Shown here one piece after another: positions 5,589 to 40,000 of a stretch of DNA of 64,000 nt; the first letter of the stretch is position 1, and the number at the start of each line of letters is the position of its first letter. Origin of the DNA: Vitis vinifera. Taxonomy: Eukaryota > Streptophyta > Magnoliopsida > Vitales > Vitaceae. Under the pieces are notes generated by a model. The model was not told the origin of the DNA, made no database searches, and was given only the letters and a program-made list of their open reading frames with translations. The position numbers and the translations under genes were made by a program. The stretch lies in NCBI RefSeq assembly GCF_030704535.1, contig NC_081819.1:20494001-20558000 (forward strand), read 5' to 3'.

Positions 5589-6502
5589 AAGAACCTCAAA
5601 TATTTTAAATTAATATTATCTTCATCTATTTAAAAATAATTTGAAATGCATGCATTTTAGTCATCCAATTATTCCCAAAAATTTTCATTTACTTATCATA
5701 TCATCTAAATCAATTGACAACTCGACTCCTCCATATAGATGTTTTATGATATTTTATTATTATTATTATTATTATTTAGGAATTTTTTTTTCTAGAAACA
5801 TTATAGAGTAAGAATTTGAAGAAAAAAAGAGAGTTTATTCTAATATTAATAAGTTTAAAAATAAATTCATATTCTTGATAATAAATAAACCAATAATAAA
5901 TTTGTATTTATTATATAATATTAATAATTGTTTAATATAATAGCGAATAAAATTTGTTATAAGAATTTTTCAGATATAAAATGTTTTATTATAGGGTTGT
6001 ACTTTGATATATAGTATAAAAATAAATAAATATTTTATATTAAATGAATTAATCACAATTAAAATAATTATATATTACTAAATTTATTATTTATTATTTA
6101 ATAAACAACCTTATTACTTTTTAATTGGTAATTATGATTAAATAATATTTATTTGACAACATTTCCTCTTACAATTCTAAGAAAGAAAAAAAATATTAAT
6201 CCTATATAAATAGGATTTTTTTTGCACAATATTTCTTAAATTTTAAAAAAACTAAAATAAGAATCCTACCAGGTGTCTGCTTTTAGAGAGAACAAAAAAT
6301 CTCAAATAATAAAATTATAATTATAATGATAAAACATCTAAAATGAATTAAAACATCTATATGGAAGAATCTAGTTATCAATTGATTTGAATGATATGAC
6401 AAGTAAATATCATTTTTATAAAATAATTAGATAACTCATTAAAAAGTGCATGTATTTTAAATTAAATAAATATAATACTAATTAAAAAATTTTGGGGTTC
6501 TT
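5589..6502. mobile_element. non-autonomous element with ~160-bp terminal inverted repeats
   Basis: The left arm (about 5589-5750) reappears in reverse complement at about 6345-6502. Matching landmarks are the outer end GAACCTCAAATATTTTAA against TTAAAAAATTTTGGGGTTC and the inner end CCATATAGATGTTTTATGAT against AAAACATCTATATGG, with the block around CAATTGA in between. The 600-bp interior is AT-rich without an open frame, so this looks like a MITE or foldback relic. No clean target-site duplication could be assigned. Confidence 0.75.
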
Positions 6503-15216: not shown

Positions 15217-16013
15217 TTTGGGAGTGCTAGCCGGTCAAGGTTAGGGCACGTGTCATTGGTGAGGGAGAGAGAGTCCCTATACCGGGTAGGACAGGAACCC
15301 TACCTTTCTTCCCACGAGGGCCACCTGTCTCCATCCCACATTCTAAAGTTGGAATTGGAATATTGTACGGCATCATCTTATTATGAGTATTCACGTGGTC
15401 GTGTACCATGTGATTAATGTCACCTTAATTATATTTGATCATGGTTTCCTGATTGATTAGGCCTCGTGCTGCATTTTTTCATATTTCCTTTCAATTTGTT
15501 CCTTTCCTTTTCCCACTTTTTTTTACTTCAAATTATTATTGTACGTCATTTCTGTCCAGAATTATTTCATGGTCTTCCTGGAGGTAGAGATTTCTGGTGT
15601 CATTGCCACTTGATTTTTGAAATTTTCTGATAGGCATTCATCCTCTAAAGATTTATTAGGTTCTTATTGAGCAAAATTTTCTCTAGCCAGGCCTGAGGTC
15701 ACAGTGACCACCTCAGAATTGTCAAATGAAGTGGCCATAGGAACATCAACATGTGTCCAAGGCTCAATCATTACAATAAGGAATGTTCATGTTCAGGTAC
15801 GTACCATTCTGATTGCACTCCAACCCCTTCAAATAGGGTTGGTTTCTAAAGCAAAAAAAAAACAAAAAAAAAGGAAACTTGTGTTTTGATGGGGCATTTG
15901 GAAAATGTCTAATTTTTGAAATCCAACTTTATAAAATATGAGAACCAGATTTTAATATGAAAAGTAATATTGCTTTCATACGCTCTGAGCTGACTCCATT
16001 TTTTGTGCCAAGA

Positions 16014-16309
16014 TTACCCTCCGACGGCGATGATCTTGGTGGCAATGGCTTTTGGCTTAGGTTTTTCGGCGTCGAAGGGGGCTTCCTTTTTGGCTTTTTT
16101 CTTCATTCTGGAGTGAGGAGTGAGGAAGACAAAAGTGTCCTTGTTGTCGTTGTTGCTCCGGTGGAGGAAGTCGCGGAACTTCCATCGTTTCGATGATCCC
16201 GTGGAGTTGCTTTTCCTACACCTTCCCGGTGGAGACTCTGCCGCCTTGGTTTCCACACGCAATACGTCCCCGGCGGGACTCCCTCAAGCTCGTCGGCCTC
16301 TGATGACAA
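16014..16309 (-). pseudogene. DUF1645 gene fragment, minus-strand copy, disabled
   Basis: Read on the minus strand, this encodes ADELEGVPPGTYCVWKP, then after a one-base deletion near 16249 KAAESPPGRCRKSNSTGSSK, RWKFRDFLHRSNN and KDTFVFLTPHS, the C-terminal signature of plant DUF1645 proteins (function unknown). Compared with the plus-strand copy the first codon is TTG instead of ATG, one C is missing in the AAACCCAAGG run, and a CAA codon is TAA, ending the frame at 16014. Most of the normal protein is absent. It is a pseudogene fragment forming one arm of an inverted repeat. Confidence 0.75.
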
Positions 16310-16468
16310 GGATACTCCAGGTCCATTACAGATAAAAAAAATAGGTTACAGTGGTGACGGCGGCAATGGACTAAGCTGCAGCGGCAATGACCTTGATACT
16401 TCTAGATTTTTCTCAAATATGAAATAGAATTTCAATTGAAAAATATGTTTTTGATAGAGGAGAGAGGA

Positions 16469-16843
16469 ATGACTTCGAAGGCCGACGAGCTCGAGGGAGT
16501 GCCACCGGGGACGTACTGCGTGTGGAAACCCAAGGCGGCGGAGTCTCCACCGGGAAGGTGCAGGAAAAACAACTCCACGGGATCATCGAAACGGTGGAAG
16601 TTCTACGACTTCCTCCATTGGAGCAACAATGACGGCAAGGACACTTTCGTCTTCCTAACTCCTCGCTCCAACATGAAGAAAAAAGCTGAAAAGGAAGCCC
16701 CCTCCGGCGTCAGAAAACCTAAGCCAAAATCCATTGCCGCCAAGGTCATTCTCGTCGGAGGGCAATCTTGGCACAAAAAATGGAATCAACTCAGAGTGCA
16801 TGAAAACAATATTACTTTCCATATTATTATCATGTTTTATTAA
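16469..16843 (+). pseudogene. DUF1645 gene fragment, plus-strand copy, open frame
   Basis: An open frame of 124 residues starting MTSKADELEGVPPGTYCVW, continuing with AESPPGRCRKNNSTGSSKRW, KFYDFLHWSNNDGKDTFVFL and a Lys-rich tail, then running into sequence unrelated to the family. Complete DUF1645 proteins are much longer and carry this motif near the C-terminus, so this is a fragment even though the frame is intact. About nine of ten bases match the minus-strand copy 165 bp away. It could still be transcribed or translated as a short protein. Confidence 0.6.
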
Positions 16844-29225: not shown

Positions 29226-32200
29226 ATGCAAGACTCAATCACAGCCGTAGATTTGCCCGGCCAGTTGCCTCTCCAATTCGTCAAGTCGGATCCAATCCCA
29301 CCGGCCCCGACCCCATCCCAGTTTGCCGTCGATTGGCTGCCGGACTTCGCCGGACTCTCATGGGTCGCCTACGGAGCCTCCACGTTGCTCGTAATCTCCC
29401 ACTTTCCCTCTCCTCTCTCCTCAGAGGAAGCCCTAATCGGCCCAATTTTCCGGCAGGTAGTGGAGATCGCAGCCGACGAGTCCGCCGCCGTTTCGGTGGT
29501 TGGTTGGTCGCCGGCTACGCCCTCGGTCGGTGAGCTGGCGGTGGCGTCGGGGAACTGCGTCTGCGTGTTTTCGCATGATTCGGAGAGGGCGGAAGGTATG
29601 TGGTTAAAACTCTTATTGTTGAGGTCTGTTTGGTTGCTGGGAAATTGTGAGAGGATGGAAGAAAAGTGAATGTGAAGATTAGTCAGATGGTTGTATATGA
29701 CCTAATTTGAACTCTTAGGTTGCATTGGGTGATTTGGGTCGTGTGATATTGGATTTGGATTGGAATTCCCAACAAATTCTTGCTCATTTTATGGAATTGA
29801 ACTCCTCTCGTGGGATGTGTTTGGTTATTGAGAAAATGTAGAAAAAAAGAACAGAAAATGAGTATGAAGTGAACTTATAGCTTAACAAAGTTACTGTACA
29901 TTGAAATTGGAGTTCTATTAGAATTCCCAAAAAAAAAAAAAAACTCTTCCTTGTACTTTGAAATTTGGTCTGTGGATTTTGGTTTTATGGGAATCCTGCA
30001 GTGGAATTGGCTTCCCAGTTGCCAGGCTCGACCTCATGTGACCAAGTACCATCAATGCAGTACCATATTGTAGGTGGATATCAGAATTATCCAACTTTGT
30101 GATTGTGTTGTAAATCCTTACTACCAATCAGACTTGTTTGAGCATCAATATATGGTTAAGGCCTCTCTTGACAATTCCTTACTTCGATGAAACTTTGACA
30201 TTTTTCTTAAAATTTCTGTATTAAAATACTTTCTAACTTTGGGATGCTGATAACCATGATTTTTCTTTTTAATAAGTTGATAACTATGATGATATGTTTA
30301 AAATGTTTTACAACTATGAATGCGATTATGTCATGTGTGTACTACTTGGGAGTGTTTAAGGTTCTTGAAGATGGGAAATGATAATTTTTACTTTTTTCGC
30401 ATAAAAGATACTAAGGGAAAGTTAATTTGTTTGGATCTGTTAATAAAATTTGTTATCTTTATGGCCTTATTTTAAAATATGCAACAACAACAATTCCTAA
30501 AGTCTGTGTGGATTTCTAGGATTCTACCACTGGGTCCTTTTTAATACATTTGTACCTGCAAATTATGTAGGTAAAGGAACATATGTTTTATGCAAAACAG
30601 AATAATGAAAATATAAGCTTTTAAATAATATAATTTATGTATAATATTCTCTACGGAAAGTAATGTATGTTTTCATCTTGATAATTACTTATTTGTAAAA
30701 GGAGGTATCTTTGATTGTTTTCTCTTCTTTTCCATTTTGTTTGGATATCTTGAAGTTGAGATCTCTTTTACTCATATTCAGGTTCTTTTTGTTGGGGCCA
30801 GACTGCAGTGCTTGTACACTCTACCAAGGTGGAGGCTATCAAGTGGACTGGTTCTGGAGATGGGATAATTGCCGGTGGAACAGAGGTGGTCCTCTGGAAA
30901 AACAAGAGCAGGTCCTGGGAAATAGCTTGGAAGTTTAAATCAGAACACCCTCAAACCTTTGTTTCTGCAACCTGGTCCATTGAAGGACCATTGGCTTCTG
31001 CAGCTTATCATAGTAAACTTCATATAGGAGGATGGTTTTCTCCATTCAATGACGCTAGCAAATGTGTGTTAGTATGTTACAATGATGGAAATTCTGAATA
31101 TGTGAAAACTGAGCTACGTCATCCTCAGCCTGTCTCAATGATTCAGTGGAGGCCATCGACAAGACAACAACAATCAAAGGGAGATGCAAAATATCCAATG
31201 AGGCACGTGCTGCTAACATGCTGCTTGGATGGAACTGTAAGGTTGTGGAGTGAGATTGATAATGGGAGGGTCAGAAAGATTGGCACCGAAACCAATGATC
31301 AGAAGACTGTGAGACGATCATTTCGTGTTGCTGCTGTGATTGAGATAAATCAGACCTTGAACGGAACTTTGGGAACAAATGTATTTGTGACATGGGCAAC
31401 AGAAATTGCAGGTATAATTAAGACAGGTGAAGGAGCTAATCAAATTTTCTCTACAAAACATCATGAGCATGAAAAGGCTGGAAAGTGTGAGTGGTTAATT
31501 GGGTTTGGTCCAGGGATGTTCCTTACTTTTTGGGCCATCCACTGCCTTGATGACTTCTCACCTGTGAGATTCCCTCGAGTGACTTTATGGAAGAGACAGG
31601 AGGTCCAGGGTGCTGAAATAGGAAATTTTCATAATACTGGTAATTCAAATTCTGAAGACCAATCTGTTCTTAATAAAGTTGTTATTATGAGGAATCTGTT
31701 ATTTGGTCCACCAATCGCGTGCTCTTTGATTCAGTTATTACCTTGTAATTCTTTATGCTGGTCGTTTTTATATACTCAAGCATTTAATGGTACGCAGGAT
31801 GGATCTATAAATAAATTCACAAGAGAGAACATTTTATCATGTTGTTCTGGGGCTACCTTAAATATAGATGGACATAGTGGAAAGATTTTACAAGTTGCAG
31901 TGCATCCTTATAGCTGTAAAGTTGAACTTGCTGCTTCTTTGGATTCTAATGGATTGCTTCTACTTTGGTCACTTTCTACCATTTCCAACTGTATTTTGGG
32001 CCTGTCTACATTGAATCCTACATGGAAACTTTGTGGAAAATTTGCAACTCAAGATTCTGGCTCCAAATATACGAGCTTGCATTGGGCACCTTCAGTATTG
32101 GATGAAGACTGCATCCTTCTTATGGGACATGCTGGGGGAATTGATCTCTTTATAGTTAAGGTTTCTCAAAGTGAAGAGGAAAAAGTTATATGTTACAAGT

Positions 32201-35200
32201 TGTGCACTATACCTTTTACTAAACATGGTCCTTGTCAGGATGGTCCCGCAAATGTATTCTCAATTCCTCTGCTTTCTGCTTGTAATAAAACATTTAGTTC
32301 AAATAAGTTTATGTTTTTAGCAGTATGGATGAAACCTTTTCAGGCCCTATCATGGGCAATCACTTTGCATTCCTGTGATTTATCAGGAAGCTGCTTTGGA
32401 TGCAGTTCTGACATTGGAAATACTGCTGAAAATGAGGAGATGAGGTTTGAGAATATTTTTTCTGGTAGAAAATATTCTGTTCTTGTAAATCCTTGCTCAT
32501 CCCAATTTCCAGATCCTCATATCCATGATCAGGTTACGAGTTATGCTGTGGTTTGTCCAGCTAATTCAATTCCTTCATTACAACAAGGTCAGGTTTCTTC
32601 TAATGATTTGCACATTGACATTCCTGCATATCACATGGCCACAGGCTGCTCTGATGGTACTTTGAAACTATGGAGAAGCAACTCTTCTAGATTATCAAAC
32701 CCTCATTTTCTATGGGAGCTTGTGGGTATGTTTGTGGCACATCAAGGACCCATCAGTGCAATATCTTTGACTGATTGTGGTCAGAAGATTGCAACCATCT
32801 GCATGGCTGGTCATTTAAGTACTGCCAGCACCCTTCGTATATGGGAGTCTGTACACCTTACAGGTGCAGGAAGTTTTGTATTAGAAGATACCGTTTCTGT
32901 CGATGGAGATGTTGTTGCTCTAAGTTGGTTAGCATTAGGAAATGGTCAGTTACTGCTTGGAGTTTGCATGCAAAATGAGTTGCAGGTGTATGCCCAGAGG
33001 CGTTGTGGTGGTCAGACTTTGTTAAGCTCTGGAAAATCTCTGGAATTGCATATTTGGTTTTGTATGGCATCTGCTCGTACTTTCCCTTCTATTCATGACT
33101 TCCTTTGGGGGCCCAAGGCCACAGCTGTGGTCATTCACAGTAACTATTTTTGTCTGTTTGGTCAGTGGTTATTAAGTGTGGATAGGAAAGATCAGTCTAA
33201 TTGCCACCCAGAATGTACCAAGGGCAGTCCTGATTTCAAATTTGAAGCAGACAAAGATGTTCTTTCTATAATTTCCACCGACTCTGGCATTCTTGATTTC
33301 AAAGCATTATCAATGGAAGATAGTACTGGAGAATGCAAATCCAAGCTGCCTATTAACATAAATATGACTGGCCATCTATCCAGCAGTTTGTTTGCAGCAA
33401 GGACTCGAATGAAATATGGTTCTGGTGCCAAGCTCGGTTTCTGGAGTATACTAGAAGTTGCAGAGAAATTATGTGGATCTTTGCCTGTTTATCATCCTGA
33501 GGCGCTCCTGATGAATATATATTCAGGTATTTTATAAGCAGTGATACACTGATCCTTATAGAAAGAAACGGAAATTTTATCCCATTTTCTTCTTCTTCAT
33601 GCAACATTCATTTGATGGAAGTAGTACAGCTGTTCAGTTAAGAATTCTGGAGCTTGATATGATATCCAGAATTCTTAACTGAACAGCTGTACTACTTCCA
33701 TCAAATGAATGTTGCATGAAGAAGACGAAAATGGGATAAAATTTCCATTTCTTTCTTTTTCATGGCCTTAGTTTCATAGTTCACAGTTACCTCTTTTCTT
33801 CTTTCTTGGTAGGAAAAACAAGGAACTATATAAGGGTGCCTAAGAGAGTAACTATTGTGTATATAACATTGTGGTCTGAGTATAAATGCTGGGATTTTTG
33901 CAACAATCTGAAGAGGAAAAATAACTGACCTTTCATGAAAGGAAGAGTCAATCCTTGCAAACTTAAATATGATTTTTACCAGAATAATGAATAGATCTGC
34001 AGTGAACCCGGTAGCTACTCTTGAACTCTCACTGATATATTTATATAGAACCATAATTCCCATCACTTTCTTCTAAGAGCATCTGGAATATTTCAATACA
34101 TATTACATGCTCTGTTACTGTTGACCACACAAGTAACTCACATTTGCACATTAGATATGTCATTCTACTCAAACTTATTGTCACCTTTCAGTTACAAAAC
34201 TATTTATTTCATTTTATTGTATTAGATGTTTTCTCTAAAAAAGAGTTTATAGTACTTGTTTCATTTTAGCTGACATGTTACTCACGGCTTGTAGTCTGTC
34301 ATGTGTATAGGCAATTGGAAACGTGCTTATATAGCTTTGCAGCATCTTGTTGAGTGTCTTACTTCTACTCATGCTCCTGAGAGAAGACATTCCACTGCAA
34401 AGTCTAGCCACATCATCCCACAGATTCACTTGTCAAATTATTTTGAAGGACATCTCTCAAAAGCTTCAACTGACAAAGGATTTCAATGGAGTAGAGAGGA
34501 CACTTTAGTCACATCGTCTGCACAGTTTCAGAGAGGTCCAATCCAGTTTTCATACAATTCAGAGTCTGATGCTCCCAGGAATATGTTCTCTTCATCTTCT
34601 ACAAAATCTGAACTCAGCAGCTTTGTTGAACCACTTGAGAAGTTCTATGAATTAGCAGCCATAACCAGCTCAGAGAAGATGCAAATTCTTGCGATTATTG
34701 ATCTTCTTAATGAAGTCAATAATCCCCACTCTGCTTCTGCCTATGGGAGTCTTGATGAACCTGGCCAAAGGTACTTGTAAATCTGGTTGATTATGTATGT
34801 TTTTGGTGTTATTGATGTTCTAGACTTCTAGTCCATTACATGAAAGATTTTCTTCCCTCTTGATTTTATGCCTTTTCTGTGTGCATCTCGGTTTTCGCTT
34901 TGGGAACTGGTCTATGGTTTAAGAATTCAGGTACAGGACAACGTAAAACTGGTCTTCAGATGACCCATCGACTGTGGAGGGAATGGGTTCAGTGTCTTAT
35001 TGGCTAGGAAGACTGAATGCAGGAAGAAGTTATCTCAAATTTGGATGTGCTTCCTGAACAAATTTAGAAGGCTATTTAGCTATTGGTAGAATTTAGGCTG
35101 TAAATTGTACAAATGTGGTGTTTTTGTTTTCAGGGACAGGTGATGGGGAAAGCTTGGCTTTATAACCAAATGAGGACTGGTTTTCCATTTTTGTATATAA

Positions 35201-37010: not shown

Positions 37011-40000
37011 TCTCTCTCTAAATTTCTTAACTCACTAACTCCCTGAGAACCCCCCTCTGCTCTCCTGCATGCAATGCTGTTGACATTCAAAACTAATTAA
37101 TCCTCTCTATTCTTTGAATCCAATTCCAATGTGCAGTTGTATTGTTTAACTGTTACAGGAGGAGAAAAATAAGGCAGCTGCTCTGAAAAATGCTTATGTC
37201 TTAATGGGGAGACATCAGCTGGAGCTTGCTATTGCTTTCTTTCTGCTTGGAGGTGATACTTCTTCTGCAATCACTGTTTGTACAAAAAACCTTGGGGATG
37301 AACAGCTTGCTCTTGTAATTTGTCGGCTTGTTGAGGGGCATGGTGGACCATTGGAGCGTCATCTAATATCAAAGTTTATACTTCCTTCCGCAATTGAGAA
37401 AGGCGACTACTGGCTTGCAAGCATCATGGAGGTGCATGAAATATGCATATCTAAACTTCTAAATTTTTTCTCATAAAGAATGTTTCCATGCACTTAACTG
37501 CATGTATGGCATCTGACTGATTTTGGCATGTCATAGCTTATCATTCACTCTCCTTGGTTTGCAGTGGGAACTAGGGAATTATTTCCAATCCTTTCTGATA
37601 ATGCTTGGCTACCAAATGGATTCTGTGATCAACAAGCCTGCTCTTTCATCCAATCATGCTGCATTTTTAGATCCAAGTATTGGACGGTATTGCTTAACAC
37701 TGGCAACCAAAAATAGTATGAGGAATGCTGTAGGGGAGCAGAATGCTGCAATTCTGGGTAGATGGGGAACTTTAATGATGGCTACTGCTTTGAGAAGATC
37801 CGGCCTTCCTGTAAGTGCTTTTGTTATTTTTCTGCTCCTATACGGTATTAAGTTGCCAGATGAGAATATGACATTTGTGTTGAATCCCTCTTTTATAAAT
37901 ATTTCACTCTTCAGAACTATTCAAAACTTCTATAGTTGTTGTTCTTAGGAAATGACCTTCCTGAACCTGTCCCTAAAGTGATGATATACTTGATAACTAG
38001 TTCTTACATGCTTTTCATTTGTAGGTGTGTTTCAAATCTGGACATGAAATTTTACATGTAATTTGTTTGTAATTTAATAAGTCAAATGCAAGGCCTTGTG
38101 ATACTTTCTGCAAATTCAGACTGTTTGTTTACCTTATTTTTCTTGTAATAAAAAGAAATGTAACTTGTAGTTTGTACTTTCTCACTTGATGTATCCACGT
38201 TGTTAATAGTTATCCTCCAGATTAGGACTCCGTAATTAATCTCTATTATGTTTATTTTAAAGCTTGAAGCCTTGGAGCTCCTCTCATCTTCTCTGAGCAA
38301 TCTTGGGGCTGCAGATCAAAGAAGCATATCAAATGTTGGAAAATCTGAAATTCTACATGGAATATTATATCCATCACCAAGTGATTCCTCTAACTGGCTG
38401 TCAGGTGATGCGGCTTTTTATTTGGAGTCCCTTGCTAGATTAGATTTGGCAATGCAGTACTTGTCAAAATTGATGAGGGAGCATCCAAGCTGTCCAGAAA
38501 AAGTAGCATCTGGTGGTTGTAGAGAGTATGAGAGTCATCAGTATGAGATATCACTTGAAAAATTTCAGCATAAGTTATATGGAGGGCTTGAAACGTTTGA
38601 GCAGAAGTTTTCTCTGAGTGGCGATTCTCTGATTAACAAGGTACACCTGAAACACATGCTTTTAGTTGATTCATCTGGGTTATGCATTCACAATTTATAG
38701 TCTTTGAGGGACTGATGTGTTTTTGTTTGTCTGTATATTACAGGTTTTAGTTGCATTATCCAATAACAGTCTATTGTTTATTGGATATGATGTATTACAC
38801 AGATATAAATCTCAGGATCATTCACAAGATAGAATTGATACGGTTCATAGTTCTCTTTTATATTCTATTCTGCCCAAGCAACTTTTGAAGGCTACTGAAG
38901 AATTCTCTCATTTATTTTCACGATTTATTGTTGCCTGCAGTATAACCTGCTCTCAACAAAAATCTTGTTCCACAGAGAATGATATGTCTGGTGCAACTAT
39001 GTGTGGCTGTATTGATGCTGGGTGCTATCACCTGCAAGATCTCATGTTGTCATTGTGGAGTTTAAGAGCCATTCTGAAGATATTTTCTGTCTCCTGTACT
39101 GATGATGTCATCAAGAAACCAATTATCCTTCTTGATTTGATTGAATATTGCCTATATTTTGTATGTGCATGGTTTCAAAGAAATTTGAATGGTCTCATTC
39201 TGATGGCAAGACCTCTCTTGATCACATATACTGATGGGCATGCTTCATGCAATATTGACATGGAAAATCTGAAGAAGGCCCTTCACCAGATTTCAGAGTC
39301 AGTAGATCTCAATTCATTGATTGATGATGTAGGAGTCTGCCAGCAGGTTGCTAAATGGATGCAAGATGCACAAAGTGGAGATATACTGCCTTCCATGCCA
39401 GAAGATGAAAGACAGAAAATTCTAGGGGTGTGCATCTGGCACCACATATCAAGTTCCATGATAAATCTGCTTAATTCCCTGGGTGACACTTCTTCCTGGG
39501 CATCTAGTTCCACATGTTGTGAACCTGATGGCAACTCTTTAATGGAAAAGATCAAATTGGTCCCCCTGATCTTTATGAAGTTCCTAAAAACCACAGTCAC
39601 ATATATTTCTTCTTATCATGCAAAACAACTTGCATCATTTCTGTTGCAGAAAATTGAGGATGGGCTACATGTACCAACTCTTGAATGGTTAGAAAAATCT
39701 AGTCAATCTCAACCCAGATCCATCCAGAAGAATCTGAATCAGGGTATCAATTTGAACATAATGAACATTGAAGATAAGTCATCAGCTTCTGAAGTAATAC
39801 GGGATATCTTTGCTGATCCTAAAATTATATCTGAAAGTTTTGTGCAAGAAAAAATAAATTGGTCACAGTATGTGAATGGTAAGCCCTTCAAAGGATGGGG
39901 TGACATATACAAAGGCATCATGAGGGAGCATGAAAGTGCAGAAACTTCTGATCAAGATGGTAGGCATATGAGTAATTCTGCAAGTAGTGGAACTGGATCA

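Follow-up and report, generated by a model that had tools for sequence, protein, structure and literature searches.

A near-perfect 92-bp hairpin in an intron of a grapevine Rav1-like gene, a probable local inverted duplication

The 64,000-nt stretch of the Vitis vinifera genome analyzed here (the window) contains a near-perfect hairpin within an intron of a Rav1-like gene, and its arms were found at this single locus in the genome searches made. We consider that the hairpin probably originated from a single local inverted duplication of unique intron sequence, most simply through one template switch, that it is young, and that the pre-mRNA now carries it as a passenger. The hairpin and its surroundings comprise the following features.

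30760..33526, + strand: long exon upstream of the hairpin intron, covering WD40 and the start of Rav1p_C; its 5' limit is taken from where the open frame starts rather than from a mapped splice site
33527..34310, + strand: host intron, 784 nt, GT...AG; the exon-exon junction is present in 6 of 7 fetched retrocopy stretches
33560..33651, + strand: left arm of the inverted repeat, 92 bp, single-locus in genome searches
33652..33664, + strand: spacer (loop), 13 nt
33665..33756, + strand: right arm, complementary to the left arm in inverse orientation at 90 of 92 positions
34311..34763, + strand: exon downstream of the hairpin intron; its 3' limit is where retrocopy L039 departs from the gene

The two arms, 92 nt each, are complementary at 90 of 92 positions (98%) and are separated by a 13-nt spacer. 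The hairpin had been recognized in the initial annotation, and its presence as well as its estimate of about two mismatches (there are exactly two) were borne out, whereas the proposed 90-bp arms and 15-base loop needed correction to 92 bp and 13 nt, with coordinates that lay one base inside at each end. The first mismatch opposes C at 33569 to A at 33747, which on the same strand reads as CpG in the left arm and TpG in the right arm, while the second opposes T at 33590 to C at 33726. The region folds far above chance. The minimum free energy of 301 nt of the + strand around the hairpin was -163.9 kcal/mol versus -59.3 +/- 5.4 kcal/mol for shuffled sequences (z -19.2, none of 100 shuffles being as low), and the minus strand of the 197-nt hairpin alone gave a z of -30.3 (0/200 shuffles as good). 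A plant MIRNA stem-loop is expected to be no longer than about 300 nt with few mismatches, and the hairpin, with 197 nt and 2 mismatches, is of this size.

The intronic position of the hairpin in a Rav1-like gene, as first annotated, was confirmed by the GT...AG intron at 33527-34310 and by a match to the RAVE protein 1 C terminal family (Rav1p_C, PF12234). In a domain-family scan of eight frames, exons of the host gene matched WD40 (E 9.1e-11) and the frame at 37150-37476 matched Rav1p_C (E 9.6e-29), while six of the eight frames matched no family. The long upstream exon also aligned with PF12234 (E 2.2e-6), its 26.8 bits being just under the 27-bit cut-off. We take this RAVE-like gene to function in V-ATPase assembly. 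The donor GT at 33527 lies 33 nt upstream of the left arm and the acceptor AG ends at 34310, 554 nt past the right arm, distances at which the hairpin ends are not those of a mirtron. If the host gene is transcribed, the hairpin must be transcribed as part of its pre-mRNA.

To place the hairpin against its genomic background, inverted repeats with arms of at least 60 bp, at least 95% identity and a separation within 1 kb were sought in 18 nuclear stretches of 10 kb, taken at chosen round-number coordinates rather than at random, and none was found. The scan excluded arms with 90% or more A+T as well as words occurring more than 40 times, and its seeds had to contain at least three different bases. 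Two further stretches (L013 and L014, half of the latter reading N), located on contigs of 770 kb and 132.5 kb, were taken as organellar and set aside from the 18; they were also scanned, and none was found. Weaker inverted repeats in the 18 samples numbered three (49 bp at 84%, 31 bp at 94% and 49 bp at 82%). In the window, the hairpin was the only repeat of that grade among the four listed, the three others having identities of 88, 88, and 92% and larger spacers. A hairpin of such grade is thus uncommon, and many of them may still exist genome-wide since the sample amounts to only 180 kb and the window. As for the other repeats of the window, a nested inverted repeat at 15953-16826 has arms of 297 bp (88%) around a 280-nt spacer and continues inward as 52-bp arms at 92%. 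At 5687-6408, 60-bp arms at 88% stand 602 nt apart.

We searched the 495.6-Mb assembly (21 contigs) for other copies of the arms. A 206-bp query around the hairpin matched only the two arms, as did the left arm with six spacer bases at E values up to 10. Because this DNA search ignores words that are very common and limits scoring to the top candidates, it could overlook a relative that is high-copy or strongly diverged. Three patterns of 27 to 30 bases, covering 84 of the 92 arm bases and allowing at most three mismatches, each matched exactly the two arms assembly-wide, with no match for their reversed-pattern controls. Within the 64-kb window, the 20 matches listed for the arm included 18 besides the arms, with at most 24 aligned bases except for one of 39 at 74%, and a best E value of 0.015. 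The remainder of the host intron also matched only itself in the assembly. One exact 24-mer of the arm, searched against viral_contigs as a narrow test of viral origin, returned no match. The search for a source sequence recommended in the initial annotation therefore yielded none at detectable similarity outside the two arms. With no further copy found, neither a MITE family nor a source gene is detectable. Likewise, the arms had no extended similarity to another gene in the assembly of the kind left by the inverted duplication of a target gene, a known MIRNA origin.

With its long inverted arms and short spacer, the hairpin is shaped like a transposon and could be viewed as a copy of a MITE or foldback element whose terminal inverted repeats are long. 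MITE-derived hairpins share this shape (PMC10004981, PMC3237417), but unlike them the grape hairpin had no other copies in the genome searches made and no convincing target-site duplication. Indeed, of 22 x 24 boundary pairs tried, the best flanking direct repeat was CCTTA at 33554-33558 and 33766-33770, located 9 bases beyond the right arm. About 0.5 such 5-mers are expected by chance over the pairs tried, assuming equal base frequencies, and trimming the boundaries evenly by -3 to 11 bases gave no match longer than 2 bp. As the best end repeat is at about chance level and off the arm boundary, a transposon is not supported and we consider this origin very unlikely, in keeping with the absence of transposon termini noted at first reading. 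An assembly or sequencing fold-back artefact, which could produce a near-perfect inverted copy such as this one, known from one assembly, appears extremely unlikely. A fold-back read would give identical and usually much longer arms, with no return to the original sequence. Here, the arms are only 92 bp and carry two differences, and the sequence returns to unique intron followed by an intact acceptor, which argues against such an artefact.

A recent inverted duplication had been one of two explanations initially offered for the similarity of the arms, and it fits two differences per 92 bp and the lack of an arm copy elsewhere in the assembly searches. The stretch of intron would have been duplicated once, locally and in inverted orientation, creating the 92-bp/13-nt/92-bp near-perfect hairpin. 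One replication template switch may suffice, in which the polymerase copies back along the newly made strand and then returns, and the two arm substitutions would have accumulated after the duplication. Consistent with such a switch, the hairpin comprises a near-perfect inverse copy adjoining its source, with no other copy found in the assembly. Template switching has been argued, from reconstructed mammalian ancestors, to yield perfect stems in one event, including at microRNA loci (PMC8794818). Those loci, such as MIR633, have in common with the grape hairpin a new reverse-complement repeat, a near-perfect stem, a short spacer and later mismatches, whereas the grape hairpin lies in a plant intron, has a long arm and comes with no reconstructed ancestral state (PMC8794818). 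Against a single switch, the 92-bp copy exceeds the largest pattern discussed in the available text of that study (up to 59 bp, that one failing quality control). Either arm may be the original, and the route may have taken one or several steps.

Two differences in 92 bp suggest an age of about 1.7 Myr (0.2-6.0) at 6.5e-9 substitutions per site per year, or 4.3 Myr (0.5-15.7) at a second rate. The former is a grass rate that had been applied to grapevine (PMC2576258). Gene conversion or repeated switching between the arms, if any, would make the true age exceed the estimate. One of the two differences, C versus T at a CpG, is of the kind that deamination of methylated cytosine would leave, but a single site proves nothing. 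Selection for the stem, the other explanation initially put forward, is not supported. The hairpin is probably a neutral passenger, presumably riding along with the Rav1-like pre-mRNA.

The hairpin lies 33 nt from the donor of exon 2, and the stem could be a cis-acting splicing element kept for altering the use of this donor. Modelled pairing was higher at donor positions +7 and +8 with the hairpin (0.60 and 0.87) than without it (0.39 and 0.60), but positions +2 to +5 were less paired (0.05-0.09 versus 0.24-0.34), and the last three exon bases and +1 were strongly paired either way (0.88-0.96 with the hairpin, 0.85-0.93 without). Moreover, the arms cannot loop an exon since both sit in one intron. 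The stem itself is thus predicted not to engage the donor, but an effect on splicing may still exist. The suggestion that the hairpin affects splicing of exon 2 found no support, as the modelled stem does not take up the donor, and we regard a role as a retained splicing element as highly unlikely.

While the intron exists, its RNA would fold into a 92-bp double-stranded stem that leaves out the splice donor. In plants, DCL2, DCL3 and/or DCL4 act on the transcripts of inverted repeats, which is also the presumed starting point of proto-MIRNAs (PMC12825306, PMC4211545). A long dsRNA transcribed along with the host gene could plausibly be cut by siRNA-making Dicers and so provide raw proto-MIRNA material. 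Some of the stem might be diced by the siRNA-making DCLs (DCL2/3/4) into low levels of heterogeneous 21-24-nt siRNAs. The only close match found for such siRNAs is their own locus, and they would therefore cause at most weak methylation in cis.

A stronger proposal is that the intron holds a young working MIRNA or hairpin-siRNA gene, with a single main 20-24-nt product, or a small number of them, acting in the regulation of other genes or in methylation of the locus. The near-perfect 197-nt stem-loop within the intron is compatible with it. DCL4 instead of DCL1 is required for several non-conserved miRNAs whose precursors are long hairpins, miR822 and miR7695 among them, and miR400 is an example of a miRNA located in an intron (PMC4211545). 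Plant MIRNA models also headed the sub-threshold Rfam matches, the E-values for MIR821 being as low as 2.5e-21 and 6.3e-21. However, no known RNA family was retained: there was no match in the window at the Rfam gathering score, and hence none to a curated precursor family, which would be supportive but is not required of a new MIRNA. MIR821 reached 109 of the 249 bits needed, with the two strands about equal (109.3 and 107.5), and the 21 sub-threshold matches also took in models of animal microRNA, snoRNA and bacterial sRNA. Because both strands score alike and unrelated models are included, we judged these matches to be generic to long hairpins. In addition, the assembly searches made disclosed no second locus that could serve as source or near-perfect target.

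The literature was searched for six 12-13-mers taken from the arms, a set able to detect 28 of the 72 21-nt windows of the left arm and 30 of the 72 of the right arm. Written in RNA letters, they were absent from the text of the papers covered. In DNA letters, six papers each contained one of the six, none of them with a title on grape or plant small RNA. Both are weak tests confined to main texts. The main texts of three grapevine small RNA papers (PMC4434875, PMC6366190, PMC6404619) did not name chr15, and the passages covered made no mention of the locus. In the miRVine atlas, candidates were restricted to 20-22 nt to keep out siRNA-like ones (PMC4434875), and such a hairpin could have been passed over in it for this reason. 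A wider search, confined to listings and selected passages and including few subscription papers, found no published account of the hairpin. Taken with the points above, a working small-RNA gene seems unlikely to us.

The hairpin resembles in part two known classes of plant loci. With proto-MIRNAs arising from inverted duplication (Allen model; PMC3237417, PMC12825306), it shares the inverted duplication, the near-perfect stem and the location inside a gene, but it copies local intron sequence and not a detectable target gene. Like Arabidopsis IR71 and other siRNA loci that are endogenous inverted repeats (PMC12825306), it would form intramolecular dsRNA when transcribed, but the stem is 92 bp versus a dsRNA of about 3 kb. 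The boldest proposal would be that the locus is a MIRNA gene at birth, created by a single template switch in a RAVE-like intron and transcribed from the host promoter, with its stem already diced into siRNAs. We hold this to be quite unlikely. If true, it would show that a plant MIRNA can be born without a transposon and without any target gene having been duplicated in inverse orientation. Should small RNAs arise from the hairpin, it would represent a clean natural one-step proto-MIRNA from unique intron sequence, served by a host promoter and having a stem that can be dated, and would make the source of new plant MIRNAs testable between accessions. Should none arise, it would be an ordinary local inverted duplication, which is a known kind of event.

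Related sequences of the same genome lend independent support to the intron limits. A protein search with the upstream exon gave 18 matches, namely the gene itself (100%) and 17 others, all partial and seven with an internal stop. Seven of the matching places were fetched and compared. Six of these stretches cross the junction without the intron: similarity to the window extends as far as 33527 and picks up again at 34308 or 34309, the alignment pieces overlapping by 3-4 letters common to both sides of the junction. In the seventh (L033), similarity ends at window position 33466, before the junction. The intron-less stretches look like copies of spliced RNA. As they join the flanking exons there, they show an ancestral transcript to have been spliced at the host intron limits. 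Paralogs keeping the intron were considered as an outgroup for the hairpin and had to be discarded; with six stretches intron-less and one ending earlier, they are uninformative on whether the hairpin was present at that time.

These six stretches (L034-L039; C12, C10, C15, C1, C18, C9) and further matches correspond to spliced partial Rav1-like copies scattered genome-wide, with about 84-96% exon identity. L035 and L036 are 95.9% alike across 1.5 kb, well past the gene-like part, while L038 and L039 show 99.5% likeness across 199 bp, each with one gap at a similar place relative to the gene. These likenesses suggest that at least some of the retrocopies spread within a repeated element that had captured the cDNA.
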